In this document: positions 2,229-38,182 of the stretch, piece by piece
Layout: each line of letters opens with the position of its first letter
Position numbering within the stretch: the stretch's first letter is position 1
From: a virus
IMG/VR virus record: IMGVR_UViG_3300020467_000015
Span: 1-38,186 of that record
DNA: 38,186 nucleotides
Strand: one strand, 5' to 3'
The notes under the pieces: generated by a model
Database searches by the model: none
What the model was told of the DNA's origin: nothing
What the model saw: only the letters and a program-made list of their open reading frames with translations
Made by a program: the position numbers and the translations under genes

Positions 2229-3215
2229 CTAGAACGAGCCACCGTCTATGGTAATATTTTCTAATGATCTTGTTGTACCAGAGCATGATATGACTTGTGA
2301 TGCACCTGCACAATCATTTAAATATAGTGATCCAATTTCTAAAGCACCATACGCACTAACTGTTAGAACACTAGCACTCTCAGATACCTCAGATCCTACT
2401 GTAATTCTGCCTGTAGAGTCATCCCAAAAGACTGCAGCTTTCTTTGCTGACCCACTGTAGTAGTTCATTATTATACCAACGTCCTTGTTGGTATCAGTTC
2501 CTAGTGCAGAACCATCTACAACTTGTAACTCAAGAAGTACGTCTTCAATTGTTGTGTTGACTGTGTTCAAGTTTGTGACTGTGCCACTAACTGTAAGGTC
2601 ACCACCCACTGAGAAGTTACCAGTTGAGTTTATATTACCTGTAACATTCAATTGTGATCCGTTGAATGTTAGATTACCACTGTCTTGTAGTTCACCATTA
2701 GAACCAGCTGTTACAACTCTACCAGAGGTAAGATCTGCCACCTGTGCAGATGCCATAGTAGCAACACCAGATACATTTACATTAGTTGTTTTCAAGAAAG
2801 CAACTGTACCTACACCAGATACATTCACCTCTGCAGCTCCCGTGCCACCTGCAGCAGCATTGTTAGGGGTTGTATCCCATGATAAGTTACCAGAACCATC
2901 AGACTTCAAGTAACCAGTATTGACAGCAGCTGCTGGCATCACATAGTCTTGATTGCTTGAAACTGATAAAGGTGCTTTTATTGTTATTGCATGTGCTCCA
3001 TTATTTCTTGCTTCTGTAAGTTTTACTCCAGATGATGCTGTAGCACTACCTTCCTCCCAAAATCTTCCTGATCCAATAAATTGATTATTGCCTGTTGTAG
3101 AGTCTATACCAACATATAAATCATACTTATCAACGGTGAATCCTGGTTCACCTGCTTGTAGACCTGGTAAACTTGCGAGATTACCTCTCTTAAACTGTAA
3201 TACAGGGTTCGCCAT
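2229..3215 (-). CDS. Tail-fibre-like structural protein
   Basis: A 328-residue protein. The N-terminus (MANPVLQFKRGNLASLPGL, then QAGEPGFTVDKYDLYVG) matches the short attachment-type domain that opens many phage fibre and baseplate appendage proteins. The middle is a low-complexity beta-rich region of V-x-V-S-G-x-x-T and L-x-V-x-G type repeats (about residues 125-215), as expected for a trimeric fibre shaft. The C-terminus ends ITIDGGSF. It is short for a cyanophage fibre and has no obvious receptor-binding head. It follows a possible late promoter, with GAGGAAA about a dozen bases before the ATG. It may be a short fibre, or an adaptor carrying a separate tip encoded elsewhere. Confidence 0.72.
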   Translation of the reverse strand: MANPVLQFKRGNLASLPGLQAGEPGFTVDKYDLYVGIDSTTGNNQFIGSGRFWEEGSATASSGVKLTEARNNGAHAITIKAPLSVSSNQDYVMPAAAVNTGYLKSDGSGNLSWDTTPNNAAAGGTGAAEVNVSGVGTVAFLKTTNVNVSGVATMASAQVADLTSGRVVTAGSNGELQDSGNLTFNGSQLNVTGNINSTGNFSVGGDLTVSGTVTNLNTVNTTIEDVLLELQVVDGSALGTDTNKDVGIIMNYYSGSAKKAAVFWDDSTGRITVGSEVSESASVLTVSAYGALEIGSLYLNDCAGASQVISCSGTTRSLENITIDGGSF

Positions 3216-24532: not shown

Positions 24533-26658
24533 TAGTATCCGTATCCACTACTTGATGATGTCGAACTTGAGGATGATGATGTTGTCGATGTCGATGAGAC
24601 TGGGGTTGATGAAGTATCTATCGCACTTGTCGGGGTGCTAGTTATAGGTAGACTATCAGGTGAGTGGGATGCTCCTGTCATTTTATTTCCATTAGGCATA
24701 GTATGGAAAGCACCATAGTAAGGTTGACCGTTCACATATCCAACCAGAGTGGTAGCAGATGAAGTACTCAAGATCATCGCTCCTCTGACTTTTGCACCAT
24801 TTGAGTAACTTGATTGAGGATCATATCTTGTACCTGATGTATTTGCACCAGAAGATATTGGATCTTCTCTCATATAGAAATTACTATTCGATACGTCAAA
24901 TTGTAGGTATAACTCTTTTCTTGCTAATACATCGTTAGACTGAGGCACTGCTTGTATCTCTACGATATTATCAGATTGCACTGTAGAAGTAATATTTACA
25001 GTATCAATAATAATTTCACCCTTTGCATAATCTACAGATCCAAATGATGAAGACAATATCTTGACTGATGAGTCAGAATCTATTTGGAATAGGAACAATG
25101 ATCCCTTATCACCTGAAGTATATTGGTCAGAGAAGTATACAGTTCCCTGTACTCCAGATACATTGAATCCAGTTGATTTTATGTTATAACTTGCTTCATT
25201 TCTATGGAAGGTATTATCAAAACATATCTCATATTGACTGAATACATTGATTTGTGCAACTAAATTCCTTCTTATTCTAATCGTGGTTATATTTGATGTT
25301 ATTGAGTCGCTGACACGATCAATAAGAGACAAAACTTTACTATATTTGAATCTACCACCAAATTTATTCAACTCTGTACCACTAGCGAAAGTGTTTAGTG
25401 ATGAGATAACGTCAGTTTTCAAGTTATCAGGATCACCAACAAAATTAGAGTTATAATACACATAACTATCAATTTCAACATATAAAAACTTTAAATCTAT
25501 AAGTTCTGGAACAATACCTGCTACAGAATAACTTTTCAATGATGATAATATTTGTTTCTTAGTAAACTCTGATAAGTAAGAACCATTTTTAGGTTTAGCA
25601 GCGATATAAACCCTACCATACTTGGGAGGTGTCAATTCTTCGCCACCAAAAGCACTTACTGATTCTATGTTGGCATATACAGATGGCACTATTGCCTCGT
25701 AATCACTTGCGGTTACTGCTCTATGTTGTGATGAGTATAATTTAGGTGCATAGTACCTAACACTTCGTAAATCCTCGATATCATCACCATTTTCAGTAGG
25801 GTACTGAGGTCTAACCACAGAAGTTGTATTAGTTTCTGTTCCACCATCTTCATTTGTTATGATACCAGTGAATTGAACTCTACTTACACCGTTTCCATTC
25901 TTACCCTCTGTCTTGATATATGAAATATCAACAACATTTCCATTATCTAACTTAGAACCAAATATACCATCACCAAATAATATCTCATACTTCTCATCAG
26001 TCGTCTCTTGTATAAGATATATGTTTGAGGTAGATGTAATTCCTATTATGTTATCTACAAGTTTATAATCAGTAGATGTGGTGCTTGCATTGTTCTCTTT
26101 TACACCAACCCTTATTGTTGATGTATCAATTCCATTGTTAGGTAATATAAACCTTTGATTCGGCTGTGAATCGTTGATAACAAATTTTGTTTCTAAGTAT
26201 TGACCTTGGTATATTTCAAAAGTACCTCGTGCTTCACCATCCTCTGCAGTGCCTGTAACTTTTTCTGGTAAAGAAAATATGTAATTCACATTTGATACAG
26301 TACCGTTTGCAATTACACCAGGTTGAAATGTTATTGTAGATGCGGTAGTAGTTATTCCAGTGACATAATAATCGAGTAAGGTTCTTGCTGCTCTTTTTGA
26401 TCTTGGAACATATCCTATATTTCTTGCAAGAGATACAACATTTTCTCTAAGTGTCGCACTGTCAATGAATGTCTCATTGACTAACATATTACTATTATAC
26501 GCTGTAGTATATGAATTATACGCTAATAAATTTACTATTACTGATAGGTTAGACCCCTCAAAATCCATATCACTGAAATTTGAGTTTTGTCTTAAATAAT
26601 CTTTTATGGAGGATTTTATATCCTCAAAATTAAGATTAGTGAATTGTTGCAGTGCCAT
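24532..26658 (-). CDS. gp6: Baseplate wedge protein gp6
   Basis: A 708-residue homologue of T4 gp6, which forms the ring that ties the baseplate wedges together and belongs to the baseplate J-like family. The N-terminus is highly characteristic: FEDIKSSIKDYLRQN, DFEGSNLSVIVNLLAYNSYT, NMLVNETFIDSATLRENVVSLAR, NIGYVPRSKRAAR. A TASDYEAIVPSVYANIESV segment near 330 and YGRVYIAAKPKNG near 360 are the usual J-domain landmarks. It is slightly longer than T4 gp6 (660 residues) owing to a C-terminal serine/threonine-rich tail of about 35 residues ending GYGY. The ATG at 26658 overlaps gp25's stop by one base (TAATG). Confidence 0.93.
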   Translation of the reverse strand: MALQQFTNLNFEDIKSSIKDYLRQNSNFSDMDFEGSNLSVIVNLLAYNSYTTAYNSNMLVNETFIDSATLRENVVSLARNIGYVPRSKRAARTLLDYYVTGITTTASTITFQPGVIANGTVSNVNYIFSLPEKVTGTAEDGEARGTFEIYQGQYLETKFVINDSQPNQRFILPNNGIDTSTIRVGVKENNASTTSTDYKLVDNIIGITSTSNIYLIQETTDEKYEILFGDGIFGSKLDNGNVVDISYIKTEGKNGNGVSRVQFTGIITNEDGGTETNTTSVVRPQYPTENGDDIEDLRSVRYYAPKLYSSQHRAVTASDYEAIVPSVYANIESVSAFGGEELTPPKYGRVYIAAKPKNGSYLSEFTKKQILSSLKSYSVAGIVPELIDLKFLYVEIDSYVYYNSNFVGDPDNLKTDVISSLNTFASGTELNKFGGRFKYSKVLSLIDRVSDSITSNITTIRIRRNLVAQINVFSQYEICFDNTFHRNEASYNIKSTGFNVSGVQGTVYFSDQYTSGDKGSLFLFQIDSDSSVKILSSSFGSVDYAKGEIIIDTVNITSTVQSDNIVEIQAVPQSNDVLARKELYLQFDVSNSNFYMREDPISSGANTSGTRYDPQSSYSNGAKVRGAMILSTSSATTLVGYVNGQPYYGAFHTMPNGNKMTGASHSPDSLPITSTPTSAIDTSSTPVSSTSTTSSSSSSTSSSSGYGY

Positions 26659-27062
26659 TATAACCTAGTTGGTTCGAGTATAAAATTGACTGATTGGTTG
26701 GGTGCATTAAGTCCAACAATATCATAAAATATGGTTGCATCAATTGAGTTCTGATCAGGTGTGGATTTGAATTTCACATCTGTAAGGGTGACTCTTGGTT
26801 CAAAGTTTGCGATTACGGTCTCAATTTCTGACTTAATTGGATCAGTGTAATCATCATTCGCAAGTTCAAATAAAGAACCACTTATACGTGTTCCTAGTAA
26901 GTCATTAAAAAACACTTCTCCCAGATTAATGCGAACTAGATTTTGAACAGAACGTTTTATTGCATCTTCGTTTTTCAACACAAGAATATCATCCGTCACG
27001 GGATGTTTTTTAAAAGATAAAGAAATATCTTTGAATCCTTTTGAAAAAGTCTGTGCTGGCAC
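26658..27062 (-). CDS. gp25: Baseplate wedge protein gp25
   Basis: A 134-residue homologue of T4 gp25 (132 residues), the small lysozyme-like-fold wedge protein that helps nucleate sheath polymerisation. Family landmarks are present: FKDISLSFKKHPVTDDILVL, the NEDAIKRSVQNLV helix, INLGEVFFNDLLGTRISGSLFE, then the IANFEPRVTLTDV strand. The start is a GTG at 27062, with two late-promoter-like octamers 22-39 bases upstream. It is the first gene of the virion block and couples to gp6 through TAATG. The family's E-P-R segment (FEPRV) is intact. Confidence 0.94.
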   Translation of the reverse strand: MPAQTFSKGFKDISLSFKKHPVTDDILVLKNEDAIKRSVQNLVRINLGEVFFNDLLGTRISGSLFELANDDYTDPIKSEIETVIANFEPRVTLTDVKFKSTPDQNSIDATIFYDIVGLNAPNQSVNFILEPTRL

Positions 27063-27315: not shown

Positions 27316-28068
27316 CTATATGATTCTTGTTTTCTCGTGACCAACTCTACACTGCGGATCTATCCATATTTCATAACCTGCTTTGATTGCATCAAGACAG
27401 AATGAAACGTCTTCACCACACATATCTTGTACCTCACCAGAATCAAATACTTGCATCTGGGGTGCAAACCAAGGATACTTCATCTCTTGATGTTCAAATA
27501 CACCCTTCTTGATAAGTAACCAACCAAATCCAGAATAATCAACAGTAAATGGTTTACGTCTTTTGACAATACCATCAACCATCTCATGATTCATCACACC
27601 ACCATTTTCTTTGAAATCATCCTCTTCTAACCAGTGTGCACATGATGTAGTCTTACCATCCTCTGTTGCATACCATCCACCTGCAATATCTTTATCCATT
27701 GCAAGCACACGGTAGAAACTTTCATTAGTAAAAACTATATCACTATCAATCCACAATTGATAATCATAGTTTAGTTTGCCATCCCAAGGTAATTGATCAG
27801 GTCCTCGTAATACATTTGCACCTAAAACCTTACATCTAGCAAAGTTTACCATAGAACTATAGTCTTGTGCTATTTGTATATTTGCTCCGTTCTGTACCAA
27901 CTCAAAGCAGAGTGATACGAAATTCTTTAGAAAGATATATGAGACACCTCTGCCTGGTAAACAAAATACAATACTTTTACCTTTGAGAAGTTCCTTTGTC
28001 TTTTCAATATCAAAAGCACCTTCTTTCGCAGTAGGTGATTTAGATACCACCTTGAATCCTTTAGCCAT
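27316..28068 (-). CDS. GT-A-fold glycosyltransferase
   Basis: A 250-residue protein likely to transfer a sugar from a nucleotide-sugar donor in the cytoplasm. SIVFCLPGRG at 32-41 is the first strand and loop. YQLWIDSDIVF at 103-113 has the D-x-D (D108, D110) that coordinates the metal and donor diphosphate. YSGFGWLLIKKGVF lies near 180-193, GEDVSFCLDAIKAGY near 216-230 has the catalytic-region E-D pair, and a C-terminal histidine sits in VGHEKTR. These are the standard landmarks of single-domain GT-A enzymes. There is no signal peptide or membrane segment. It has its own sigma70-type promoter, so it may be expressed before the late genes around it. The acceptor is unknown: host surface glycan, phage DNA or phage protein. 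Confidence 0.82.
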   Translation of the reverse strand: MAKGFKVVSKSPTAKEGAFDIEKTKELLKGKSIVFCLPGRGVSYIFLKNFVSLCFELVQNGANIQIAQDYSSMVNFARCKVLGANVLRGPDQLPWDGKLNYDYQLWIDSDIVFTNESFYRVLAMDKDIAGGWYATEDGKTTSCAHWLEEDDFKENGGVMNHEMVDGIVKRRKPFTVDYSGFGWLLIKKGVFEHQEMKYPWFAPQMQVFDSGEVQDMCGEDVSFCLDAIKAGYEIWIDPQCRVGHEKTRII

Positions 28069-28089: not shown

Positions 28090-28118
28090 ATTATAACACT
28101 TTATATAGCGTCTATCAA
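28090..28118 (-). promoter_or_regulatory. sigma70-type promoter of the glycosyltransferase unit
   Basis: On the minus strand: -35 TTGATA (28118-28113), 17-base spacer, -10 TATAAT (28095-28090). That is 5/6 and 6/6 matches with ideal spacing. The -35 lies in the end of the SGNH-like gene, and the predicted transcript starts about 15 bases before the ATG at 28068. Confidence 0.8.
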
Positions 28119-28745
28119 CTCAATGATTTTATTTGCTATTGCTTTATGTCCTTCTGCACTTGGATGCCCACCATCTAGACCATTTGCATAATAGTTTGGA
28201 TTATCTCTTGTATGTTTAAATAAATCCATATGCGTCCACACTGGTTTATAATCTTTACACAAACTTCTCCAATATCCTATTTTGTTACGATAGAATTTTT
28301 CTGGTCTTCTTAGTGTGGGTTCATAGTGATCTGCTATAATAGACACATATTTTTGACCAATGCTCTTGCAAAACGAATCAAATAAAAATATATTCTTCCA
28401 CAAATTCTCATTACCTAATACATCATTGTATACTCTTGTATAGTAATATCTCTGTTTCATACTACTTACCCTTTGTGGTGTCCACGATAGAGGATCTCCA
28501 TTTTCAACATAATACTCTATTCTTGAAGTCACGGTATATTGTATGACAGCTATGTCTGCTTTATTATTCTGAAGGTAATTAATTGAGTTTCTTACAATGC
28601 AATCATTACTGATGCCACATTCTGATAAGTTAGTGTGTTGAGATTTATAATGATTAGAGACAAGTGTGCTGAACCTTTCATTATGTCTGTCTTTTAATTC
28701 ATCTCCCCATGTTATGCTACACCCACTAAAAAACAGTGACATCAT
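28101..28745 (-). CDS. SGNH-like protein, copy 1
   Basis: A 214-residue protein with SGNH/GDSL-hydrolase layout. Block I is FFSGCSITWG (residues 5-14), with the nucleophile serine in a G-C-S context instead of G-D-S. Block II is NLSECGISND (about 39-48). Block V is DGGHPSAEGH (about 191-200), an intact D-x-x-H dyad. The family includes esterases, carbohydrate O-deacetylases and acyltransferase partners. No signal peptide is present, so it would act inside the cell. The ATG at 28745 has GAGG six bases upstream; the frame is open to 28769. It overlaps the carbamoyltransferase end by about 20 bases. Of the four paralogues here, this is the one with the complete D-x-x-H. Confidence 0.75.
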   Translation of the reverse strand: MMSLFFSGCSITWGDELKDRHNERFSTLVSNHYKSQHTNLSECGISNDCIVRNSINYLQNNKADIAVIQYTVTSRIEYYVENGDPLSWTPQRVSSMKQRYYYTRVYNDVLGNENLWKNIFLFDSFCKSIGQKYVSIIADHYEPTLRRPEKFYRNKIGYWRSLCKDYKPVWTHMDLFKHTRDNPNYYANGLDGGHPSAEGHKAIANKIIELIDAI

Positions 28746-30102
28746 ACTTTTCCTCAAATAATTTTGCATCTTGAATTGTATTTACCATGGGTTTTCCCTT
28801 TATATTCAGAGATGTATTCAATAATACAGGACATCCAGTACGTTCGTACCAGCACTCCAGTATGGGTCTTAGAATACTGTCTGAGTCTTTTGGTACTGTT
28901 TGTACCCTAGCAGACCCATCGACGTGTATACAGGCAGGTATCGCCCTTGGTTGCTTACATTTATAAACGTAAGACATATACCTTGATTGTTTAGGCATGT
29001 CAAAGTAATCTTGACAGTGCTCTTCAAGTATAGCAGGTGCGAAAGGTCTGAACAAATCTCTTTTCTTGATGTTGTTTACTAAGTCTTTTGTTTCTGCTTG
29101 TCTCGGATCCGCCAGAAGACTTCTATTGCCGAGAGCACGAGGACCAAACTCAGCACGACCATTCGCAACCCCCACGACTCTTTTTTCGAGGAGTGCATCA
29201 ACAACTCTCCTTGGATCACAGAACTTTTGTATATTATATCCTAGGTAGGGACTGAAGGCAACCTTCTTACCATATGCTAGACATGCTGCCCCCAGAGCAC
29301 CCCCTGCGTCACCAGGACAAGGCATAATCCATAAGTTATACATTTCCCTCAATCCAGTGTTTACTACACAGTTGAGGGCAACACCACCCCCATAGCATAT
29401 GTGTTTGCTATATTGTGCTGCTCTAGCAAATATATTATTGAGTTCTAATTGTAATATTCTCTCTGCACTCTTTGCGATATCACACTTATCATAGTCTCCT
29501 ATCCTCGCTCCCTTGTGATTATTTCTATGTAACTGTCTCTCGACCACATTCATATTCACTGGTTTGCCATACGCTGCCATACCCATAAAGATATACTCTT
29601 CATCAAGTGGACGCAAACCTGCCCACTTAGTGAGTGCTGAGTACCATAAACCTATAGATTGCGGATACCACTGCGACCATCTCTTTTTATATACTGCTTT
29701 TCCGTCTTTATATTCCGCAGTCCATATTGATGTAGTATCCCATTCTCCTATACTATCAACCACTACACATGCTGCTTGTTCAAACGGAGAGGTTTGAAAC
29801 GCTGCTGCTGCATGAGACTTATGATGACTGTGATACTCAGTGGGTTGAAGTGATAGATTCCTAGGTCTATACCATGCCTTCTGACCTGCAAAGAACTGTC
29901 TAGTCCTCTTCAACCAAGGTCTCTCATAGAACGCTATCTTACCATCAGTAGAAATCAATAGTGCTGTAGACGCTGCTGTCAGATCAAGATGCTTGTCATG
30001 CTTTATCTTTGAGTATCTCTCTGAGTGTGCTGCATAACAAATTTTACCATTGTTGACTACAGCGACTGCTGCGTCATGGAATCCTTCAGCGAATCCAATC
30101 AT
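28726..30102 (-). CDS. NodU/CmcH-family carbamoyltransferase
   Basis: A 458-residue enzyme expected to transfer the carbamoyl group of carbamoyl phosphate, through carbamoyl-adenylate, to a hydroxyl on a sugar or metabolite. All family landmarks are visible: GFHDAAVAVVNNG at 7-19; the metal-binding H-x-x-x-H of SHHKSHAA at 92-99; VVVDSIGEWDTTS at 113-125; GGGVALN at 238-244; GDAGGALGAA at 264-273; the hallmark GRAEFGPRALGNRSLLADPR at 315-334; HVDGSARVQTV at 393-403; and LLNTSLNIKGKP at 427-438. It is shorter than typical bacterial members (about 570 residues), but both the Kae1-like and YrdC-like halves remain. GGGGA lies upstream of the ATG. Overlaps with both neighbours indicate one operon. 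Confidence 0.93.
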   Translation of the reverse strand: MIGFAEGFHDAAVAVVNNGKICYAAHSERYSKIKHDKHLDLTAASTALLISTDGKIAFYERPWLKRTRQFFAGQKAWYRPRNLSLQPTEYHSHHKSHAAAAFQTSPFEQAACVVVDSIGEWDTTSIWTAEYKDGKAVYKKRWSQWYPQSIGLWYSALTKWAGLRPLDEEYIFMGMAAYGKPVNMNVVERQLHRNNHKGARIGDYDKCDIAKSAERILQLELNNIFARAAQYSKHICYGGGVALNCVVNTGLREMYNLWIMPCPGDAGGALGAACLAYGKKVAFSPYLGYNIQKFCDPRRVVDALLEKRVVGVANGRAEFGPRALGNRSLLADPRQAETKDLVNNIKKRDLFRPFAPAILEEHCQDYFDMPKQSRYMSYVYKCKQPRAIPACIHVDGSARVQTVPKDSDSILRPILECWYERTGCPVLLNTSLNIKGKPMVNTIQDAKLFEEKYDVTVF

Positions 30103-31198
30103 ATATTCTTCCCCTTTTTCTCATATCTTTCATTTTTCTCATTGTAACATACTCTTTCGCCAATCGCTCATAATATTTACGTTCGGGGTAATTACCAGGA
30201 TGTGTAGCAGTTCGTGGTAGACTGTTATTATCAAAACCAAAGAATTCTTTGTAATCGTCTCGATCCATATTAAAATAAATTGGTTCCAAACCTCTTTCTT
30301 GAAAATACCATTCAATTCTTCTTAGATTTTTTACGATATTATCAAAGTAATTCCATACTACGCTTTTGTCGATTTTTGATATATCTGAAATATCCTCAGT
30401 AGACATTCTTTCTAATACATGTTTATTACTAAATCTTTTTAATTTACTGGCAAGACAATCAATTATATCTTCTTTGTATGGAATGATATTTTTTCTTTTC
30501 TTAAATATTTTTAGAACATATTTTTCAAGATCACTTATATCTGACATATTCATATTCATACTACCTATCATTTTTCTACCCATCACATGAAAGGGTTCAA
30601 TGATTATATCAGCATCTAACAACTCATCCAAACAAGGCAAAATATATTTTGTATTATTCTCCATATATGGATCTAAAAATGAATTTAGATAGTTTCTACA
30701 TGGTGATACTGGAAAATACTTGAGCAAATCGCAAAAATATTTGTCAGTAAAGAATACTTCAACAGGATCTTTATCTTTCATCAAAGTATCTGGAGGTCTT
30801 CTTTCTTCAACACCTCCAAAGTACTTTTTCATCAAATCACCCCCTTTTTCAAGAGTATTAGAAGTAAGTTTGATTCTTAGTCCTAGCATTTCGTCTTCAT
30901 CGGGATTATTCGATAAAGAATTTACAACCTCTAGGTATTCATGTAATTCTGGACATATTACACCTTTTGATTCTTGACCAAACGTTGTTTTGGTTTTTAC
31001 AGGTGTTTCTACCTCATTTTTTCCTTTTCTTACAACATAAGACTTCTCTATTCTTACACTGTAGTCATTTGGGTCATGCGTCTGTTTATAAAAGAAATAT
31101 GGGAACTTATTTTTTACATATGACTTTTTATTGATTTCTATAAGTTGCATCAAGTGCATTTTACCCATATTGGGTATTGCCCAATAATTAATCATCAT
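30086..31198 (-). CDS. Protein of unknown function
   Basis: About 370 residues, basic and rich in K, Y and M, with no motif I recognise. Visible features: an N-terminal YWAIPNMGKMHLMQLIE segment; a central charged region (DKDPVEVFFTDKYFCDLLKYFP); a long helical stretch with many I, L and K (about 200-290); and a conserved-looking tail containing RRIEWYFQERGLEPIYFNMD and LPRTATHPGNYPERKYYERL before a basic end. No signal peptide or membrane span. The frame is open to a GTG at 31249, but the tandem ATGs at 31198/31195 follow a GAGG and overlap the end of a 29-codon gene, so I place the start there. It sits between a sulfotransferase and the carbamoyltransferase and may belong to the same pathway. 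Confidence 0.68.
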   Translation of the reverse strand: MMINYWAIPNMGKMHLMQLIEINKKSYVKNKFPYFFYKQTHDPNDYSVRIEKSYVVRKGKNEVETPVKTKTTFGQESKGVICPELHEYLEVVNSLSNNPDEDEMLGLRIKLTSNTLEKGGDLMKKYFGGVEERRPPDTLMKDKDPVEVFFTDKYFCDLLKYFPVSPCRNYLNSFLDPYMENNTKYILPCLDELLDADIIIEPFHVMGRKMIGSMNMNMSDISDLEKYVLKIFKKRKNIIPYKEDIIDCLASKLKRFSNKHVLERMSTEDISDISKIDKSVVWNYFDNIVKNLRRIEWYFQERGLEPIYFNMDRDDYKEFFGFDNNSLPRTATHPGNYPERKYYERLAKEYVTMRKMKDMRKRGRIYDWIR

Positions 31199-31277
31199 CC
31201 TCGTAAATGTAAGGATCTTGGCGACGCAATTTCCATAATTTATACTCACCTTTGATCCAATTCCAAAGTTTTTTCAT
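31188..31277 (-). CDS. Tiny 29-residue peptide gene
   Basis: A 29-codon frame with ATG at 31277 overlapping the TGA of the sulfotransferase (ATGA) and a TAA at 31188 overlapping the start of the next gene. The peptide (MKKLWNWIKGEYKLWKLRR, then QDPYIYEDDD) is amphipathic: a basic, tryptophan-rich helix followed by an acidic tail. The tight junctions on both sides and the non-random composition argue for translation. It may be a leader that couples the two genes, or a small functional peptide. Nothing similar is recognised with certainty. Confidence 0.58.
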   Translation of the reverse strand: MKKLWNWIKGEYKLWKLRRQDPYIYEDDD

Positions 31278-32155
31278 TTTTTCAACCATAACTGAGGTAT
31301 ATATCCAAATTCTTTTTGGAAGTTGTTATAAACCCATTCTAACTTATTTCTACCGTATTGTAAATCATTATTTGACAAATCTTGCATATCTGAACTCCAC
31401 TGATCTCTGAGACCTTTTATTTCTGGTCTTTTTGTTCCTCTCTCTGGAAAATATACATTATCATGCATTTTTTCAATTTTCATGCCTATAAAGTCAGACA
31501 ATCCACTTGGATCTTCCCATACTTCTTCCATAATAACAGGATACACTTTTTTGAAAGCGGATTTCCAATTATTCAAGTTTTTAATGTAATCTGGCACCAA
31601 AAAAGGTTCAGGGCGATCTAATTTTGATTTCCAATAAGAAATACTGTCAGGATACTGCTTTTTTATCATCTGCCACTCAATATGATCTTCAGAACTCATT
31701 TTATACTTTTTATACTTCGCTGAAAGATGTGAATATGATCTACGCACAGGATCCCTCCAAATCATCGTAACTCTTACATCAAATTCTTCTTCTAATGCAG
31801 GTGCTATCTCTTTGAGGAAGTAATCTGGTAGATCACCGTTGCTATTTGAGAAATCACAAACACCTCTATGACTATCCTTTACTTTACTCTTCATATACTG
31901 AATATACCATAGCAATGTGGTATTTTTTCTTATAAAATCAAACTTTCTATGTTTTTGTTTATTGTGCCATATGCTTTTCGCTAAAACTGGATTATATTTA
32001 CTCTCATACAAGTAGTGTAACATATGAGGTTCTGTAATCGATTTATCACCTGATAAATTATGATGAACATAACCCACTTTATCAAAAGTGTAGCATAATG
32101 GTTTTGTGGCAGACCAACCAACACCTGCGTTTATGTGAAGAATCGGTTTGGTCAT
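31274..32155 (-). CDS. PAPS-dependent sulfotransferase-like protein (C)
   Basis: A 293-residue protein from the ATG at 32155; the frame is open to 32275, but that extension covers the divergent gene and has no counterpart in the paralogues. The 5'-phosphosulfate loop is GVGWSATKPL at 11-20, and the 3'-phosphate motif is WRDPVRRSYSHL at 133-144, matching the R-D-P-x-x-R-x-x-S signature of sulfotransferases. A FSNSNGDLP segment (102-110) and a C-terminal GLRDQWSSD block are shared with D and G. It would move sulfate from PAPS to an acceptor hydroxyl or amine. It is cytoplasmic with no membrane anchor. It lies head-to-head with gene D across 31 bases and is the first gene of the unit leading to the carbamoyltransferase. 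Confidence 0.82.
   Translation of the reverse strand: MTKPILHINAGVGWSATKPLCYTFDKVGYVHHNLSGDKSITEPHMLHYLYESKYNPVLAKSIWHNKQKHRKFDFIRKNTTLLWYIQYMKSKVKDSHRGVCDFSNSNGDLPDYFLKEIAPALEEEFDVRVTMIWRDPVRRSYSHLSAKYKKYKMSSEDHIEWQMIKKQYPDSISYWKSKLDRPEPFLVPDYIKNLNNWKSAFKKVYPVIMEEVWEDPSGLSDFIGMKIEKMHDNVYFPERGTKRPEIKGLRDQWSSDMQDLSNNDLQYGRNKLEWVYNNFQKEFGYIPQLWLKK
32100..32128 (-). repeat. Imperfect inverted repeat, left arm
   Basis: Read on the minus strand, this 29-base arm (GCAGGTGTTGGTTGGTCTGC...) matches 32217-32245 on the plus strand at 22 of 29 positions. Both arms encode the sulfotransferase phosphate loop, so this is the trace of an inverted gene duplication. Confidence 0.75.
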
Positions 32156-32186
32156 AATATTTTTAATTTCAGGTATATATAAATTT

Positions 32187-33107
32187 ATGAAGGTAAGAAC
32201 TCCTCTTATAATTGGTGCAGGGACTGGTTGGTGTGCTACAAGTCCGCTTTTTATGACTTTGCAGTGCTTCCACAAGTGTGCTCATGTTGGTTTACAAAAA
32301 GAGGATCATCTTTTATACCATGTATACACTGATGATGCTTGGAAGTGGAGAAAACCCAGTTATGAGAAAGTTATAAGATCTTCTATGAGTCCAGTTTCTA
32401 AAGAGGAGTGGGGAAGACAGTGTAAATATGCTTTTCATCAAAATCTTGACGAAATTCATGAATTATTCCAAAAACCGACGTTAGAAACTTATATTAAGTA
32501 TTATACAAGACATTATCAGAGAGTAAAACACGAATATCAGTATGTTGCTGATTTTTCTAACAGTAATTCTGAATTACCAGTTAGTTTTTTACAAGAAATC
32601 GCACCAGAACTCAAAAAACACTTTGATATCAAGGTTTTAATAATTTTTAGAGATCCAGTTCGCAGATCGTACAGCGAAATGTCTGCAATCTACCAAAAAT
32701 TCAAAAATATTCGTGAAAAATACCCAACATCTAAAGATTATTGGAGAAGTTATCTTAAGATGAAATATTATAGCATGAATTTCGAGTATGTCAAGAGGAT
32801 AAAGTATTATAAGTCGGTTTTTAGTACGTTACCCATCGTTTCTGAGGATCTTTGGGGTGGAAAAAACGATTCTTTAGCAAAACTTAGTAATTTTTTACAA
32901 TATGACATCAAAAAACTATGGCCAAATTGCTATTATCCTGAAATGGGAACAAAAACACCTGTTCTTGAAAGAAAATGGAATCTTAGTGACCAGTGGGGAT
33001 CTGATTTAGAGGATTTAACTGATGAAGACTTGAGTTTTGGTCGAAAATACCTTGAAAAATACTATGATGAGTGGTATAATGAGTTTGGAACAACTCCTTG
33101 GGGGTGA
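32187..33107 (+). CDS. PAPS-dependent sulfotransferase-like protein (D)
   Basis: A 306-residue protein from the ATG at 32187 (the frame is open from 32148, but the paralogues begin where MKVRTPLIIGAGTGW does). The 5'-phosphosulfate loop GTGWCATSPL is at 12-21 and the 3'-phosphate motif FRDPVRRSYSEM at 154-165. It shares DFSNSN at about 122-127 and a C-terminal DQWGSDLEDL block with protein C, its closest relative by eye, although C lies on the opposite strand. The TGA overlaps the next start (TGATG). It is the first of three consecutive sulfotransferase genes, probably one operon. The acceptor is unknown. Confidence 0.83.
   Translation: MKVRTPLIIGAGTGWCATSPLFMTLQCFHKCAHVGLQKEDHLLYHVYTDDAWKWRKPSYEKVIRSSMSPVSKEEWGRQCKYAFHQNLDEIHELFQKPTLETYIKYYTRHYQRVKHEYQYVADFSNSNSELPVSFLQEIAPELKKHFDIKVLIIFRDPVRRSYSEMSAIYQKFKNIREKYPTSKDYWRSYLKMKYYSMNFEYVKRIKYYKSVFSTLPIVSEDLWGGKNDSLAKLSNFLQYDIKKLWPNCYYPEMGTKTPVLERKWNLSDQWGSDLEDLTDEDLSFGRKYLEKYYDEWYNEFGTTPWG
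32217..32245 (+). repeat. Imperfect inverted repeat, right arm
   Basis: Partner of 32100-32128; it encodes the phosphate-loop segment of gene D. The arms flank the 31-base divergent intergenic gap. Confidence 0.75.
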
Positions 33108-34021
33108 TGATTGAGCAAAATATCACTCCTAGACACCCAAAAATGCTACTAATAGCTGGATGGCGTTGGGCAGCGACCTCGCCATTGATCTATACTCTAC
33201 AAAGATACTCAAAATATGCACATTTTGGTTATACAAAGCGGTTCACATCTAGTTTAAATACCGATATCTACGAACGTGTATGCAATAATACATGGGAAAA
33301 CTATAAAAGTTATGAACCATCCAGTCATCGAATGAATCTCACTGTTGATCTTGAACCTCTTCATGATTTTTCTACCACACATTTTACTCGACTCATGGCA
33401 GGTGACCATACTATATCAAAGCAAATTGATTTTTTTCATGCACTTCATGATCATGTCCTTACTAAAGGTTATAAGTCTGTGGGTATCATGTTGACAGATG
33501 AACAAAAATATAGTGAATTACTCATGTCTGAGTTTGATATCAAGGTTCTTTGGATTGCAAGAGATCCTGTTCGTCGTGCCTTTTCAGAATTTCTTCACCA
33601 CTCTAAAATAAATTGCGATTTCTATCGTTTAAACGAAAAAATGTGCTTATTCTTTCGTTTTCATGTTATTGATTATATAAAAAAGATCAATAAATTAAAT
33701 AAAAAATTTGGTGAGGATAAAACTCATATAGTTGTTATGGAAGAACTATGGGAAGGAGATGGCACTGCTAAAAAAGAACTTTCAGAGTTCTTAGACCACC
33801 CTATTACAGACCTTTGGAAAAACCTTTACTGTCCTGATAGAGGACACCATGTAAAATACGACAAAGATGTCCCTTGTCAAGCATATGGACAAGACTTATT
33901 TGAACTTACACCTGATTTATACAATAATATAAAAAAACAATATCAACATATCTACGATGATTGGGAGAATCATTTTGGTTCTCTTCCTCTACATTGGGGA
34001 CAACCAGTAGCGTATTCATGA
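33107..34021 (+). CDS. PAPS-dependent sulfotransferase-like protein (E)
   Basis: A 304-residue protein. The phosphate loop region is GWRWAATSPL at about 18-27, with R replacing the usual small residue; the 3'-phosphate motif ARDPVRRAFSEF is at 151-162. A VVMEELWEGDGTAKKELSEFL stretch in the C-terminal half matches the segment that precedes the last helix of sulfotransferases. E is a tandem duplicate of F, with long identical DNA stretches between them. The ATG at 33107 overlaps D's TGA, and E's TGA overlaps F's ATG. Compared with F, it lacks about ten residues before the DEQKYSELLMSEFDIKVL block. The acceptor is unknown. Confidence 0.8.
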   Translation: MIEQNITPRHPKMLLIAGWRWAATSPLIYTLQRYSKYAHFGYTKRFTSSLNTDIYERVCNNTWENYKSYEPSSHRMNLTVDLEPLHDFSTTHFTRLMAGDHTISKQIDFFHALHDHVLTKGYKSVGIMLTDEQKYSELLMSEFDIKVLWIARDPVRRAFSEFLHHSKINCDFYRLNEKMCLFFRFHVIDYIKKINKLNKKFGEDKTHIVVMEELWEGDGTAKKELSEFLDHPITDLWKNLYCPDRGHHVKYDKDVPCQAYGQDLFELTPDLYNNIKKQYQHIYDDWENHFGSLPLHWGQPVAYS

Positions 34022-34944
34022 AACCAAAAATGCTGATATGGGGTGGGTTTGGTTGGTGTGCAAGTTCTCCTCTCGTATACACACTTCAAAGAAATGCGAA
34101 GTATGCTCATTTTGGTTATACAAAAGTATGGAACTATTTTAAAGAAGAAAATAAAGGTATGTTGGATTTTTACCAAGTTTTTGATGGAACTTGGGAAAAC
34201 TATAAGAGTCATGAAGAACCATCTCATCGATTGAATCTTACAGTTGATCTTGAACCTCTTCGTGATTTCTCTCTTTCACACCTTAAAAAACTTATGGAGA
34301 GTGAAAGGACAGAAAAAAACTTGATAGATTTTTATCACGCACTTTATGATCATGTTATTACTAAAGGTTATAAGTCTGTAGGTGATTATAACTACCGTAG
34401 TAATTGTGTCAAAGGTGATGAAAAAAAATATAACGAATTACTCATGTCTGAGTTTGATATTAAGGTTCTTGCAATTGTAAGAGATCCTATTCGTCGTACT
34501 TTTTCACGCTATCTTAATAAAAAGCGTATGGCAGAAACTGAAAATCTGCTTCTCAGTAATCTTAATTGGAAGGGAACTACGATGAAGATTACTGATTATA
34601 CGAAGAAGATAAATGCACTCTATGAAACATTTGGTAGAGATAGAACTCATGTTACTGTCATGGAAGAACTATGGGAAGGAGATGGTACTGCCAAGAAAGA
34701 ACTCTCACAGTTCCTAGACCACCCGATTACAAATCTGTGGAAAAACCTTTATGCTCCAGACAGAGGTCACCTTGTAGAGTATGATAAGGATGTACCCTGT
34801 CAGGCATATGGACAGAACTTAGCAGAACTTACACCTGAGATGTATTATCAGTATCGTAAGGAGAATGATCACATATATCAAGCATGGAAACAGGAATTTG
34901 GATCACTTCCTTTACATTGGGGAGAACCAATTGAATATAGTTGA
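34018..34944 (+). CDS. PAPS-dependent sulfotransferase-like protein (F)
   Basis: A 308-residue protein from the ATG at 34018 (ATGA with E's stop; the frame is open from 33961). The phosphate loop GFGWCASSPL is at 10-19 and the 3'-phosphate motif VRDPIRRTFSRY at 154-165. It is the closest paralogue of E: both share AKYAHFGYTK-type, LTVDLEPL, LLMSEFDIKVL and MEELWEGDGTAKKEL segments and a C-terminus ending GSLPLHWG. The stop overlaps the -35 of the downstream sigma70-type promoter, so the D-E-F operon ends here and a new transcription unit starts. It is presumed to sulfate the same class of acceptor as E, perhaps at another position. Confidence 0.82.
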   Translation: MKPKMLIWGGFGWCASSPLVYTLQRNAKYAHFGYTKVWNYFKEENKGMLDFYQVFDGTWENYKSHEEPSHRLNLTVDLEPLRDFSLSHLKKLMESERTEKNLIDFYHALYDHVITKGYKSVGDYNYRSNCVKGDEKKYNELLMSEFDIKVLAIVRDPIRRTFSRYLNKKRMAETENLLLSNLNWKGTTMKITDYTKKINALYETFGRDRTHVTVMEELWEGDGTAKKELSQFLDHPITNLWKNLYAPDRGHLVEYDKDVPCQAYGQNLAELTPEMYYQYRKENDHIYQAWKQEFGSLPLHWGEPIEYS

Positions 34945-34969
34945 CAAGTATATGAAGAGGTGTTATACT
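34941..34969 (+). promoter_or_regulatory. Strong sigma70-type promoter
   Basis: Perfect -35 TTGACA (34941-34946), 17-base spacer, -10 TATACT (34964-34969, 5/6). It reads into a leader of about 140 bases and then the 35117-38182 genes. The sequence suits host RNA polymerase, so this unit may be expressed early. Confidence 0.85.
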
Positions 34970-34987
34970 ATATTTGTTGGACGCAAC

Positions 34988-35092
34988 ATGGGAGTGACTG
35001 AATAAACTTACTGGCAACTGCTGGTTAAGGTGATGAGACACAGGTGGTGCTGCTTCGAGAGAAGAACCGACTCAACCAGTCGGGTCTCAGGC
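34988..35092 (+). ncRNA. Structured 5' leader (putative regulatory RNA)
   Basis: This untranslated stretch can fold into a three-way junction. The outer stem is GAGAC/GTCTC (35035-39 with 35084-88). One arm is CTTC-GAGA-GAAG (35053-35064), a stem capped by a GNRA-type tetraloop. The other arm is CCGACT-CAACC-AGTCGG (35067-35083). A six-codon frame (MGVTE, 34988-35005) lies upstream. It could be a riboswitch-like leader, an sRNA or an RNA processing site. It was found by eye and no covariation is available. Confidence 0.4.
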
Positions 35093-35128
35093 AATAACGT
35101 TTTTACTACTGTAGTAATGCCCGTTATT
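35093..35128 (+). promoter_or_regulatory. Nested palindrome at the start of the small membrane gene
   Basis: AATAACG (35093-99) pairs with CGTTATT (35122-28), enclosing TACTAC-T-GTAGTA (35104-35116). The ATG at 35117 sits at the foot of the inner stem. It could hide the start codon in the RNA or bind a dimeric protein in the DNA. Confidence 0.5.
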
Positions 35129-35272
35129 TGTTGGTACACAGGAATCCAACCTCCCTCTTTCTTTTATATTATTGTTATGCCTTTATTTTTGATAGTACTC
35201 GGAGCATCTGGTATCGGTGCTGCCATCGCACTCTACATCATGCGTAAATATGACGACCCTAATACATTATGA
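35117..35272 (+). CDS. Small membrane protein
   Basis: A 51-residue protein from the ATG at 35117. Residues 15-42 (FFYIIVMPLFLIVLGASGIG and onward) form one long or two short membrane spans with a G-A-S-G-x-G-A-A helix-packing pattern, followed by a charged tail MRKYDDPNTL. There is no clear ribosome-binding site. The frame is open back to a GTG at 35030, and an internal ATG at 35177 is also possible, so the start is uncertain. Its TGA overlaps the next ATG (ATGA), pairing it with another small membrane protein. A holin-like or envelope-modifying role is possible, but no family is recognised. Confidence 0.6.
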   Translation: MPVICWYTGIQPPSFFYIIVMPLFLIVLGASGIGAAIALYIMRKYDDPNTL

Positions 35273-35445
35273 ATCCTAAACTCAAACTCTTTGTCAAAGT
35301 TGGATTTCCTCTTGTCATTATCATACAACTGACTTCAGTTCTCTTCATGCTTGCTTATAATGGACGAGACAAAGCATTGTCTTGTAAGACACTCGGTGAG
35401 TACCTTGTATGTAAACAAGTTGAGATACCTAAAGGTGTCAAGTGA
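35269..35445 (+). CDS. Small membrane-anchored protein
   Basis: A 58-residue protein with one predicted membrane span at residues 7-30 (LFVKVGFPLVIIIQLTSVLF onward) after a basic N-terminus (MNPKLK), suggesting N-in topology with a short C-terminal domain outside. That domain has two cysteines (C39 and C48) that could form a disulphide. It starts within the stop of the upstream membrane gene and its TGA overlaps the GTG start of the first SGNH-like gene (GTGA), so all three are probably translated together. Function is unknown; it could anchor or partner the SGNH-like proteins. Confidence 0.68.
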   Translation: MNPKLKLFVKVGFPLVIIIQLTSVLFMLAYNGRDKALSCKTLGEYLVCKQVEIPKGVK

Positions 35446-36041
35446 AGATATACTTTGATGGTTGTTCATGGACAATGGGAGCAGAATTAGAGAATCCAGA
35501 AGAAGAGAGATTCTCGAAGTTACTATGTGATGAGTTGGGGGCAGAAGAAACTAACGTAGCAAAAAGTGGTGGGTCAAATGATCGAATCGTCAGAAATCTT
35601 TTAGTTCGTAAGACTATTGAAGACTATGACTTGGCAGTGATACAGATGACCTTACCTACTCGCACTGAATATTATGATGACAAGTGGGTCAGAGTGAATC
35701 CACCTCATAATTTCAAAAAACCATTTTATCAACGTCAATCTATTACTAAGTGGGTAGATGAGGTAGGAATGAAACATGGTGATTTCTGGAAGTATTGGTA
35801 TACGGACATTACAAATGTAAAATACTTTGAAACCATAGAGAAAATTCATTATCACACAATTCGGAACATTCGTAAGATACCTTTGATATTACTTACAAAC
35901 AATCGGTGGACTAAACTTCCTTTCGATCTACAATTGGAAAATGGCACTCGTGATATGAAACATAGATATAATCACCCCAACAAAGAATATCATAAGTTGA
36001 TAGCAAAACAAATTAGAGAGATTTACGATGATACTTTTTGA
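35442..36041 (+). CDS. SGNH-like protein, copy 2
   Basis: A 199-residue paralogue of the 28101-28745 protein. Block I is YFDGCSWTMG (residues 4-13; G-C-S instead of G-D-S), block II is AKSGGSNDRIVRN (about 40-52), followed by an LAVIQMTLPTRTEYY segment. The C-terminal H-P motif (RYNHPNKEYH) keeps the histidine but has no acidic residue three positions before it, so the catalytic acid appears to be lost or relocated. The start is the GTG at 35442, with AAAGG six bases upstream. It overlaps the next gene by 14 bases. No signal peptide. It may be a weak esterase or acyltransferase, or a non-catalytic carbohydrate binder. Confidence 0.72.
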   Translation: MKIYFDGCSWTMGAELENPEEERFSKLLCDELGAEETNVAKSGGSNDRIVRNLLVRKTIEDYDLAVIQMTLPTRTEYYDDKWVRVNPPHNFKKPFYQRQSITKWVDEVGMKHGDFWKYWYTDITNVKYFETIEKIHYHTIRNIRKIPLILLTNNRWTKLPFDLQLENGTRDMKHRYNHPNKEYHKLIAKQIREIYDDTF

Positions 36042-36708
36042 TGGTTGTTCTTGGACTTTTGGATGTGAATTGGCAGAAGATGTCGAAAAGATAGAAGAAC
36101 AAAGATGGTCAACTCTCGTATCAAATCATTTCAATACTGAGCACGTAAACCTCAGTCATTGGGGAAAATCTAATGATGGCATTCTTCGCACCACAATGCA
36201 TCATTGTGAAAACCACAAAGTAGACCTTGCAGTCATTCAATTTACGAAGAATAATCGAAGAGAGATACTGAATGGAGATTCTTATTATCGTATGAAGCAT
36301 GGTAAAGCTAACACATTGAAGGATCAGGCATGTCTCGATTATTACAAATATTTGAATACTCCAGAAGATAATGTTGCAAACTACTACAAGAATAAATTTT
36401 TACTTGAGCAATATTTCAAAGTTCACGAGATACCATACTTATTTGTCAAAATAAATCTTAAAACAACAAAATATTATTCAAGGAAACACTCTGAGACCGA
36501 CTCGGTAAAACCATCTTCATGGCAAATGATGAGCGACCCTTCACCTGTGCCCTGTCTCTATGATGTTTTAGGTGGTTGGAATAATCCTCCTTACTACGAT
36601 TATGAGACTTACAGAAAGCAAAAAGTAAAAAAGGAAGGAACTCACCCAAACGCAAAGGGTCATCGTAAGATAGCAGATTTCCTTATAGATAATATAGATC
36701 TTTCTTAA
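36028..36708 (+). CDS. SGNH-like protein, copy 3
   Basis: A 226-residue paralogue. Block I is LFDGCSWTFG (residues 3-12), block II HWGKSNDGILR (about 47-57), then an LAVIQFTKNNRREIL segment. The C-terminal block is EGTHPNAKGHRKIADFL, where E-x-x-H replaces D-x-x-H, a plausible working dyad. The ATG at 36028 is preceded by AGAGAG and overlaps the upstream stop. Relative to the other copies it has an insertion of about 25 residues before block V (KPSSWQMMSDPSPVPC region). It probably has the same kind of activity as copy 1 with a different acceptor. Confidence 0.73.
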   Translation: MILFDGCSWTFGCELAEDVEKIEEQRWSTLVSNHFNTEHVNLSHWGKSNDGILRTTMHHCENHKVDLAVIQFTKNNRREILNGDSYYRMKHGKANTLKDQACLDYYKYLNTPEDNVANYYKNKFLLEQYFKVHEIPYLFVKINLKTTKYYSRKHSETDSVKPSSWQMMSDPSPVPCLYDVLGGWNNPPYYDYETYRKQKVKKEGTHPNAKGHRKIADFLIDNIDLS

Positions 36709-36713
36709 ACATA

Positions 36714-37331
36714 ATGCATAAAGACTTATTATTCGTTGGTGACTCTGTAACTTTTGGAATGGAGCTAGAACCGAATCATGAACAATTCAGATTTTCTCAA
36801 TTAGTTGCAAAAGATAAGAATCTATCTTATTATAACAACTCAAAGAGTGGTGCATGTAATGACTGGATAGTCAAGACCGCTACTCAGTATTTTCTACAAG
36901 GTCATACCTGTGATACAGCAATCATTCAATTCTCAGCACCAGAGAGATGGTCATTCTTTGATGCAGGTAGAGGTTTTGCAAATATTGGTAATGCAACGAC
37001 AACTAATAATCTTAGAACCAAGAGAATGAAATGGGCACATTTAGCATACTATCAACGAATCTATACAACAGAACTTGCACATGAGAACTATTGGAAGAAT
37101 GTTTTCTTCATGGATGAGTATCTGAAAGATAAGTGTAAAACCATATATCTGACACTTGGAAATCCCGCAAATCAAACTTATACTGTAAAAGATGAAGTCA
37201 TACCATATCATTATATGAAAAATGTAGAGATCGGAAGTGTCAAACAAATTGTAGGACAATCTAGACTGGTAGGACATCCTAGTAAAGAGGGACATCGCAA
37301 AATTGCAGATTACGTAATTTCTAAACTATGA
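36714..37331 (+). CDS. SGNH-like protein, copy 4
   Basis: A 205-residue paralogue with the classical block I, LFVGDSVTFG (residues 6-15), so this copy keeps G-D-S. Block II is SKSGACNDWIVK (about 44-55), followed by TAIIQFSAPERWSFF. Block V is VGHPSKEGHRKIADYV: the histidine remains, but L rather than an acidic residue lies three positions before it. It starts five bases after copy 3's stop without a clear ribosome-binding site, and its TGA overlaps the ATG of the sulfotransferase that follows. The operon of three SGNH-like genes plus a sulfotransferase suggests that acyl and sulfate groups are placed on one acceptor; that is inference. Confidence 0.73.
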   Translation: MHKDLLFVGDSVTFGMELEPNHEQFRFSQLVAKDKNLSYYNNSKSGACNDWIVKTATQYFLQGHTCDTAIIQFSAPERWSFFDAGRGFANIGNATTTNNLRTKRMKWAHLAYYQRIYTTELAHENYWKNVFFMDEYLKDKCKTIYLTLGNPANQTYTVKDEVIPYHYMKNVEIGSVKQIVGQSRLVGHPSKEGHRKIADYVISKL

Positions 37332-38182
37332 AACCTCTGATGGTCTTTAGTTTCGGTGGTTGGAGTGCCTCTACACCACTATATGAAACTTTATGCCAAA
37401 ACAAAGTGGTGCGTAGGAGCACAGTCAAAGAACCAAATATATTACCTGCAATCATATCAAAAAACTCTGATAGTATATCCGATAAGTATCAAGATTGTAA
37501 GAAGAAGAATAGAGAGGGTTGCGAAGTATTTCAGTGTACAAGTATCGATGATTATATTGAATGGTTACTGAAACATCATAACAATGAGTATCTGGGAGTC
37601 TCTGATGCCACTAATACTCACATCTTCTTTGATGTTCAAGATATTTCAACATTCGCTTTCAAGTTCAAAGAGGCATTTCAAGTCAAGATACTGATAATTT
37701 GCAGAGATCCTGTGAAAAGACTCTTCTCACATCTGAACTCAATACTCAATCCTGGTCACTCACTTGACAATCTAGGTCAGAATGAAAGACTTGAACTTGT
37801 GATACCATATCTTGATAAACCTGAACCAATACAATTTCCTGGTCAAGGTTGGGATTATAGACAAAAAGCATATGAACCATACATGGAAAGCAATTACCCA
37901 GAGATGATTGAGAACTGGTCACAGTTCTTTGACACACATGTCATCTGCATGGAAGATCTATGGGGCGATAGGAATAATGCATTAGAGAAACTCAATACCT
38001 TCCTAGGCACCTCCATTACTCTCACTCCCAATGTATATTATCCAGATCTAGGTCCAAACGCCCCACATCATAAAGGATTGAAAGACCAATGGAGTTCGGA
38101 CACAGAATTCATTACAAAGAAAAACTATGACCTTGCAAGAGAAAAACTGCAGTGGGTCTATGATAGTCTTCACTACTGGTAG
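37328..38182 (+). CDS. PAPS-dependent sulfotransferase-like protein (G)
   Basis: A 284-residue protein. The phosphate loop GGWSASTPLYETL is at 10-22 and the 3'-phosphate motif CRDPVKRLFSHL at 125-136. The C-terminal half has CMEDLWGDRNNALEKLNTFLG, then PDLGPNAPHHKGLKDQWSSD, a block shared with C and D rather than E and F. Its ATG overlaps copy 4's stop (ATGA), so it is coupled to the SGNH-like genes. The stop at 38180-38182 is just inside the window edge, so the gene is complete. No membrane anchor. The acceptor is unknown. Confidence 0.83.
   Translation: MKPLMVFSFGGWSASTPLYETLCQNKVVRRSTVKEPNILPAIISKNSDSISDKYQDCKKKNREGCEVFQCTSIDDYIEWLLKHHNNEYLGVSDATNTHIFFDVQDISTFAFKFKEAFQVKILIICRDPVKRLFSHLNSILNPGHSLDNLGQNERLELVIPYLDKPEPIQFPGQGWDYRQKAYEPYMESNYPEMIENWSQFFDTHVICMEDLWGDRNNALEKLNTFLGTSITLTPNVYYPDLGPNAPHHKGLKDQWSSDTEFITKKNYDLAREKLQWVYDSLHYW

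Follow-up and report, generated by a model that had tools for sequence, protein, structure and literature searches.

A putative glycan-decoration cassette beside the baseplate gene gp25 in a clade of T4-like cyanophages

Why would a phage keep a crowd of glycan-decorating enzymes beside the genes of its own baseplate? The question is raised by a 38,186-base IMG/VR fragment of a T4-like cyanophage relative (IMGVR_UViG_3300020467_000015, positions 1 to 38,186; hereafter the window). Next to the baseplate wedge gene gp25, it carries an island that comprises a glycosyltransferase (GT), a carbamoyltransferase (CT), five sulfotransferase-fold (ST) proteins, four SGNH-like proteins and a 387-residue protein, U387. 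A sequence-only reading had proposed that the phage rewrites host surface glycans or decorates those of its own virion. We find that the island exists and is conserved, and that the papers found say little about it. The decoration part of the proposal is supported by the ST fold, by the SGNH, CT and GT identities and by the lack of a DNA-modification partner; a cytosolic acceptor such as virion proteins is favoured over the host surface, and the precise chemistry and target are putative. On our preferred reading, T4-like cyanophages of one clade carry here a cassette for glycan decoration, whose likeliest acceptors would be virion glycans, with host-surface precursors second; we give this reading about an even chance.

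All five RDPxxR proteins foreseen from the sequence are present (RDPVRR three times, RDPIRR and RDPVKR), and in an alignment of the five the paralogs are 27-42% identical to ST1. Because they align with one another, they are true paralogs and not chance motifs. None of the window members is over the Pfam cut-off and none has a convincing PHROG. A family profile built from 73 members matches sulfotransferases in the PDB (3rnl at 2e-9, heparan 3-OSTs at 1.5e-4), and some family members reach 3e-10 against PF13469 and 1e-7 against PF00685. The AF2 model of ST2 has 4gox as its best Foldseek match (5e-6). In VIA alignments, the model is closest to heparan-sulfate 3-OST-3 (6xkg; Z 16.0, root-mean-square deviation 3.8, 226 residues) and NDST (Z 15.9), and scores lower against TPST (Z ~11) and SULT (Z 10-11, ~10.5). 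The heparan-sulfate 3-O- and N-sulfotransferases are the best structural match (Z 15-16 over ~230 residues), whereas identity to them is 14-20%. Across ~226 ST sequences, the arginine and serine that bind the 3'-phosphate are kept (R155 in 96%, S163 in 94%), and the K38-E39 pair, which may include the glutamate expected as catalytic base behind the P-loop helix, is conserved at 86/81%. Closely related ST gene pairs have a dN/dS of 0.15. By the fold modelled for ST2, the ST proteins probably transfer sulfate to glycans. Two pattern scans of genome contigs for a cellular origin of the family gave no relative, a weak result since the patterns were narrow.

Alignment of the four SGNH-like proteins confirmed the GCS/GDS, G, SND/CND and HPxxxxH motifs, and the corresponding family residues are strongly conserved (catalytic serine S18 99%, oxyanion glycine G52 90% and asparagine N55 99%, catalytic histidine H202 98%). 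The window members are below the curated Pfam GDSL cut-off; the best family member reaches 1.1e-6 for Lipase_GDSL_2 and 2.1e-9 for DUF6071. Closely related SGNH pairs have a dN/dS of 0.18. The predicted CT is borne out by both Pfam domains, well over their cut-offs (PF02543, 115 bits against 24; PF16861, 183 bits against 27), and by matches to the solved carbamoyltransferases 7xb6 (1e-45), GdmN and TobZ. By sequence, it is a full two-domain O-carbamoyltransferase. The GT exists as foreseen, but at 27316-28068 it lies outside the 28101-38182 range in which it had been placed. Besides phrog_1574 it has weaker matches to phage glycosyltransferase PHROGs, and in cyanophage isolates a phrog_1574 GT lies close to gp25, annotated there as hypothetical or as a glycosyltransferase. 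U387 has no relative by profile, no Pfam family and no relation to the ST profile, and Foldseek found no match for its AF2 model in the PDB or BFVD. Weak VIA alignments of the model (Z ~7) to a kinase-like protein and to Stf0 sulfotransferase suggest that U387 is perhaps a divergent P-loop transferase. It is mostly limited to close relatives and at times present in two copies (L074).

A carbamoyltransferase in a phage also brings DNA hypermodification to mind, in which the CT and the other transferases would decorate a modified base. A phage carbamoyltransferase with the same Pfam domains makes 5-carbamoyloxymethylcytosine, and it co-occurs with a thymidylate-synthase-type hydroxymethylase (PMC8670742). 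That such a DNA role might refute the glycan reading had been foreseen, and relatives were checked for the partner. No thymidylate-synthase-type dCMP hydroxymethylase was found in 40 related records (five of 119-172 kb), nor in the nine contigs of the relative AG-345-D19, although fragments cannot fully exclude a partner. The ST fold, moreover, is nearest to glycan enzymes. DNA carbamoylation was set aside as very unlikely. As for a defence system, ten of the proteins were compared with PADLOC and gave no match.

How widely is the island shared? Counting the window and the AG-345-D19 contigs, IMG/VR scans with ST and CT baits yielded 89 groups of non-identical loci. ST genes occur in 75 of these groups, SGNH in 73, GT in 75, CT in 71 and gp25 in 71, and clustering at a 60% identity limit left 78 ST and 102 SGNH representatives. 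The gene order gp7-gp6-gp25-GT-[SGNH]-CT is constant and is followed by a variable block of 0-8 ST and 0-9 SGNH genes per locus in either orientation. Gp25 is at most 6 kb from the GT in 73 of 74 IMG/VR loci. Since ST and CT baits favour the island, a GT-only bait was also used, restricted to loci whose upstream sequence spans 2.5 kb or more. CT, ST or SGNH genes were present in 11/11 loci at GT identities of at least 85% and in 11/12 at 81-85%, that is in 22/23 at 81% or more, against 3/23 below (76-80%). The gp25 surroundings of relatives, which the sequence-only reading had suggested comparing, thus hold the same neighbours, and near-universal presence at or above 81% GT identity makes the island a hallmark of one lineage. 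Turnover was followed in 25 relatives with CT identity of at least 80%, where some loci are truncated and absences partly technical. Median identity to the window is 94 for GT, 90 for CT, 83 for gp6 and 81 for gp25, against ~29-31 for ST3-5 and ~30-38 for SGNH-like proteins 2-4. In between (57-71) are ST1, ST2 and SGNH-like protein 1, whose genes lie close to the core or to the divergent junction. The low dN/dS of the ST and SGNH pairs shows purifying selection; the genes are therefore maintained for function. In the clade that this locus represents, the decoration enzymes persist as a group, have multiplied and been exchanged, and remain linked to GT, CT and baseplate genes.

The clade consists of uncultured ocean viruses, and the phage collection searched has no known cultivable member. 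Its hosts can be read from the window's relatives. AG-345-D19 was recovered from a South Pacific sample of 180 m depth, in the extracellular sort gate (PMC6122165), and therefore represents a single extracellular virus particle. On its nine contigs (~167 kb) are STs, SGNHs, the CT, the GT and the P-loop pair, together with a gene for a photosystem reaction centre. Genes of the psbA/psbD type are found in AG-345-D19 (psbA) and in two large related records, and the hosts of the clade are therefore cyanobacteria. The window gp6 is 63% identical to that of AG-345-D19 and ~50% identical to those of Synechococcus phages, and GT homologs in isolates and AG-345-D19 show 72-88% identity. By its sequence, the window phage is a T4-like cyanophage. 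An adenosine 5'-phosphosulfate (APS) kinase was not found in the relatives; a cyanobacterial control genome has one. An own supply of 3'-phosphoadenosine 5'-phosphosulfate (PAPS) was accordingly rejected, and the earlier expectation that a phage lacking APS/PAPS synthesis takes its sulfate donor from the host holds.

From these observations we infer the chemistry, acceptor and benefit of the cassette. Its core would be the soluble GT and the CT, fixed next to gp25; the variable part would consist of cytosolic ST-fold and SGNH proteins in changing combinations. The GT would put a sugar on an acceptor within the cytosol of the infected cell. The CT, the STs (using host PAPS) and the SGNH enzymes (by esterase action or acyl transfer) would then attach carbamoyl, sulfate and acyl groups or trim them, and the outcome would be a separate glycotype for each phage. 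Part of the SGNH/ST block would be driven by a host-type sigma-70 promoter via a manA leader RNA. The likeliest acceptors would be glycans that the phage carries on proteins of its tail, baseplate or fibres, followed by lipid-linked host surface-glycan precursors. By a simple hydropathy test, 229/230 ST and 224/228 SGNH proteins are free of signal peptides and membrane segments, as are the GT, CT and U387 proteins. A Wzx-type flippase (PF01943) is absent from 14 records, including near-complete AG-345-D19 and five large records, which argues against a complete O-antigen pathway. Without export signals and without a flippase, the acceptor is more likely cytosolic: virion proteins or lipid-linked precursors. 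We would place virion proteins first, given that the genes lie within the tail module and that the GT is spread over phages of different hosts. In a more specific form, the locus would be a hypervariable virion glycotype system, in which the phage glycosylates its own tail or baseplate proteins via the gp25-linked GT and then sulfates, carbamoylates and esterifies the resulting glycan with rapidly exchanged enzymes, among them an ST family with an altered, aromatic phosphosulfate loop. The purpose would be adsorption control or escape from recognition. We put this form forward tentatively, as a possible reading. Either way, the locus opens a question to virion proteomics and glycomics.

The same enzymes could act on the host, the main proposal of the sequence-only reading. 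They would then decorate lipid-linked lipopolysaccharide (LPS) or exopolysaccharide precursors as a barrier to superinfection or grazing. Surface glycans are classically decorated with sulfate, carbamoyl, acyl and methyl groups, and a sigma-70 promoter would permit expression early enough. In cyanophages, manA and wcaG RNAs are linked to sugar and exopolysaccharide genes (PMC2864571), and other large cyanophages carry LPS clusters (PMC3037559). Set against this are the lack of a flippase in AG-345-D19 and the five large records, the lack of export signals, the location in the tail module, and the GT, which is a core gene in cyanophages whose isolation hosts were different strains of Prochlorococcus and Synechococcus. 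A host acceptor is thus possible though doubtful.

Several observations weigh against a virion-centred decoration cassette. The first concerns the ST proteins. The 5'-phosphosulfate position of the P-loop is Lys or Arg in known PAPS sulfotransferases, where the lysine has its role. In the ST family this position 15 is W in 67%, F in 16%, H in 7%, Y in 7% and K in 1%, and aromatic in 97%, which also sets it apart from the heparan-sulfate enzymes with their basic residue. The family is therefore not filed as canonical PAPS sulfotransferases. The foreseen PAPS reading was upheld in fold by structure prediction and in the 3'-phosphate motif by residue conservation, but not in the P-loop lysine. 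The family may have left PAPS chemistry for another group transfer, or for nucleotide or glycan binding without catalysis, and single members mostly miss Pfam cut-offs. The retained 3'-phosphate motif, the KE pair and purifying selection make this departure unlikely. Among the SGNH proteins, the DxxH aspartate is not conserved (position 199 is mostly K/N/R), hence the name SGNH-like; their activity is therefore putative and may be either acyl removal or addition. The acceptor glycan is itself hypothetical and virion glycosylation putative. Finally, variable neighbours can gather at hotspots without a shared pathway, and the gp25 side might simply collect unrelated metabolic genes. In isolate S-8S55, 2OG-Fe(II) oxygenases, a ferredoxin and PurM occupy the island position. 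Many islands hold small HNH-endonuclease-like proteins, recognised by sequence (cluster f9; L061:9144-9527, L097:6499-6897 and others), which favour a hotspot and may drive island exchange. In the clade, however, the larger genes are, with few exceptions, members of two expanded families or else CT, GT or U387, and almost universal presence at GT identities of at least 81% and low dN/dS make a hotspot without a common pathway quite unlikely.

The sequence-only reading had also noted a methyltransferase and two more P-loop transferases at the other end of the window. These genes are present, the P-loop pair at 518-2033, with weak family support; they come after a fibre-like gene, at a putative second decoration site. 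The same site exists in relatives, where a methyltransferase is the usual fibre-gene neighbour (most close relatives). ST or P-loop genes occur at this site in a minority, 7 of 53 fibre-bait loci, a further point against the cassette, and the notion that the fibre site generally carries sulfotransferases was dropped.

The cassette can be compared with known systems. The rhizobial Nod-factor set combines the NodH sulfotransferase, NodU/NolO carbamoyltransferase, NodL acetyltransferase and NodS methyltransferase. The island is like it in its combined decoration chemistries, and its CT matches NodU (NCBIfam, 4e-44), though far below the equivalog cut-off (151 vs 1000 bits). In contrast to the Nod set, the island has STs of a separate phage family present in several copies, carries SGNH proteins instead of NodL and shows no chitin-oligomer synthesis. 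The serotype-conversion genes of temperate phages (gtr, oac) are likewise a phage-encoded, changing set of glycan modifications. The island differs in lacking a multi-transmembrane Gtr or Oac protein and a flippase, and in consisting of soluble enzymes in a T4-like phage. The T4-like cyanophages P-SSM2 and S-SSM7 carry LPS/glycan gene clusters of unknown function (PMC3037559). Those clusters lie near hli03 or phoH, whereas the island lies at gp25 and combines ST, SGNH and CT without a flippase.

The SGNH block also has an RNA of its own. A manA RNA scores 188.6 bits against a gathering threshold of 55.2, and a TTGACA-17-TATACT promoter ends 5 bp before it. The start site expected of this sigma-70 promoter is the 5' end of the RNA. 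Together (34941-35160) they split the plus-strand block and start the SGNH block. The strict promoter pattern is found at 20/21 manA instances in relatives and isolates, including the Prochlorococcus phages P-SSM4 and P-HM1, versus ~0.0009 per site in shuffles. Late T4-type promoters (TATAAATA) were not enriched (1 match vs 4.7 expected). Minimum-free-energy folding of the RNA was not below shuffles (z -0.66), so its identity rests on the covariance match. ManA was found in 12 of 40 related records. Within the clade, a peptide of 26-31 residues with one transmembrane segment follows the RNA, and SGNH, ST, U387 or other genes follow the peptide. The window micropeptide (MPLFLIVLGASG...) is under purifying selection (pN/pS 0.19), and none was found in isolate loci L170-L172. 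The 2010 description treats manA as a candidate riboswitch that mostly precedes genes for sugars or nucleotides (PMC2864571). Its neighbours in isolates are pstS/talC, or gp23 on one side and gp3 on the other; here the micropeptide and SGNH and ST genes lie downstream of it. What is new here is the combination, at the SGNH block, of a manA RNA, a conserved sigma-70 promoter belonging to it and a conserved micropeptide. That this orphan RNA lies upstream of glycan-decoration genes may give a clue to its ligand or role.

Table 1. Coordinates of the island, its RNA elements and neighbouring genes in the window.
Feature	Coordinates	Strand	Evidence
gp6, baseplate wedge	24532..26658	-	phrog_219 6e-185; nearest named homologs AG-345-D19 and cyanophages
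gp25, baseplate wedge, island anchor	26658..27062	-	PF04965 2e-8; phrog_261 1e-44
GT, soluble glycosyltransferase, core gene beside gp25 in cyanophages	27316..28068	-	phrog_1574 2e-114
SGNH-like protein 1, likely start 28745 or 28742	28101..28769	-	SGNH motifs, paralog alignment; GDSL Pfam sub-threshold
CT, NodU/TobZ/GdmN-type O-carbamoyltransferase	28726..30102	-	PF16861 5e-54, PF02543 5e-33; phrog_1601 Nol-like 5.5e-94
U387, no Pfam family; 24 locus groups	30086..31249	-	cluster 8; AF2 pLDDT 79.5
Sulfotransferase-fold protein 1 (ST1)	31274..32155	-	paralog alignment; family profile matches PDB sulfotransferases
Sulfotransferase-fold protein 2 (ST2), member modelled	32187..33107	+	AF2 pLDDT 91, pTM 0.91
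Sulfotransferase-fold protein 3 (ST3)	33107..34021	+	paralog alignment; PF00685/PF13469 sub-threshold
Sulfotransferase-fold protein 4 (ST4)	34018..34944	+	paralog alignment; PF00685 E 0.0085, below cut-off
Sigma-70 promoter, TTGACA-17 bp-TATACT	34941..34969	+	sequence; strict pattern in 20/21 manA instances
manA RNA, RF01745	34975..35160	+	188.6 bits, E 3e-51, full length
Micropeptide after manA RNA, 31 residues, one transmembrane segment	35177..35272	+	70-100% identical in relatives; pN/pS 0.19
Small membrane protein, 58 residues	35269..35445	+	homologs in L034 and L101 at 82-87% identity
SGNH-like protein 2	35442..36041	+	motif alignment of SGNH paralogs
SGNH-like protein 3, DUF6071-like	36028..36708	+	Pfam search and SGNH paralog alignment
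SGNH-like protein 4	36714..37331	+	domain search and SGNH paralog alignment
Sulfotransferase-fold protein 5 (ST5)	37328..38182	+	ST paralog alignment
Putative methyltransferase, usual gene after fibre gene in clade	12..521	-	PF13489 E 0.007, below cut-off
P-loop protein, weakly sulfotransferase-like	518..1342	-	no PDB relative by profile
P-loop protein, paralog (48%) of the 518..1342 protein	1287..2033	-	sequence comparison
Tail-fibre-like protein, anchor of second decoration site	2229..3215	-	marginal Mtd N-terminal match PF18454 1.4e-5, just below cut-off

The features of Table 1 are arranged in two directions. Read from right to left, the minus strand holds ST1, U387, CT, SGNH-like protein 1, GT, gp25, gp6 and two giant proteins, which we call gp7-like and gp10-like from their position and size. 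Beyond the gp10-like giant come the tail-fibre-like protein, the two P-loop proteins and the putative methyltransferase. The plus strand carries ST2, ST3, ST4, the manA RNA, two tiny membrane proteins, SGNH-like proteins 2-4 and ST5. Overlapping genes had been taken to be expressed together; many overlaps exist (1 to ~45 nt), but the genes form divergent units and not one operon. The start codons of ST1 at 32155(-) and ST2 at 32187(+) are separated by 31 bp (32156-32186), which leaves little space for two promoters.

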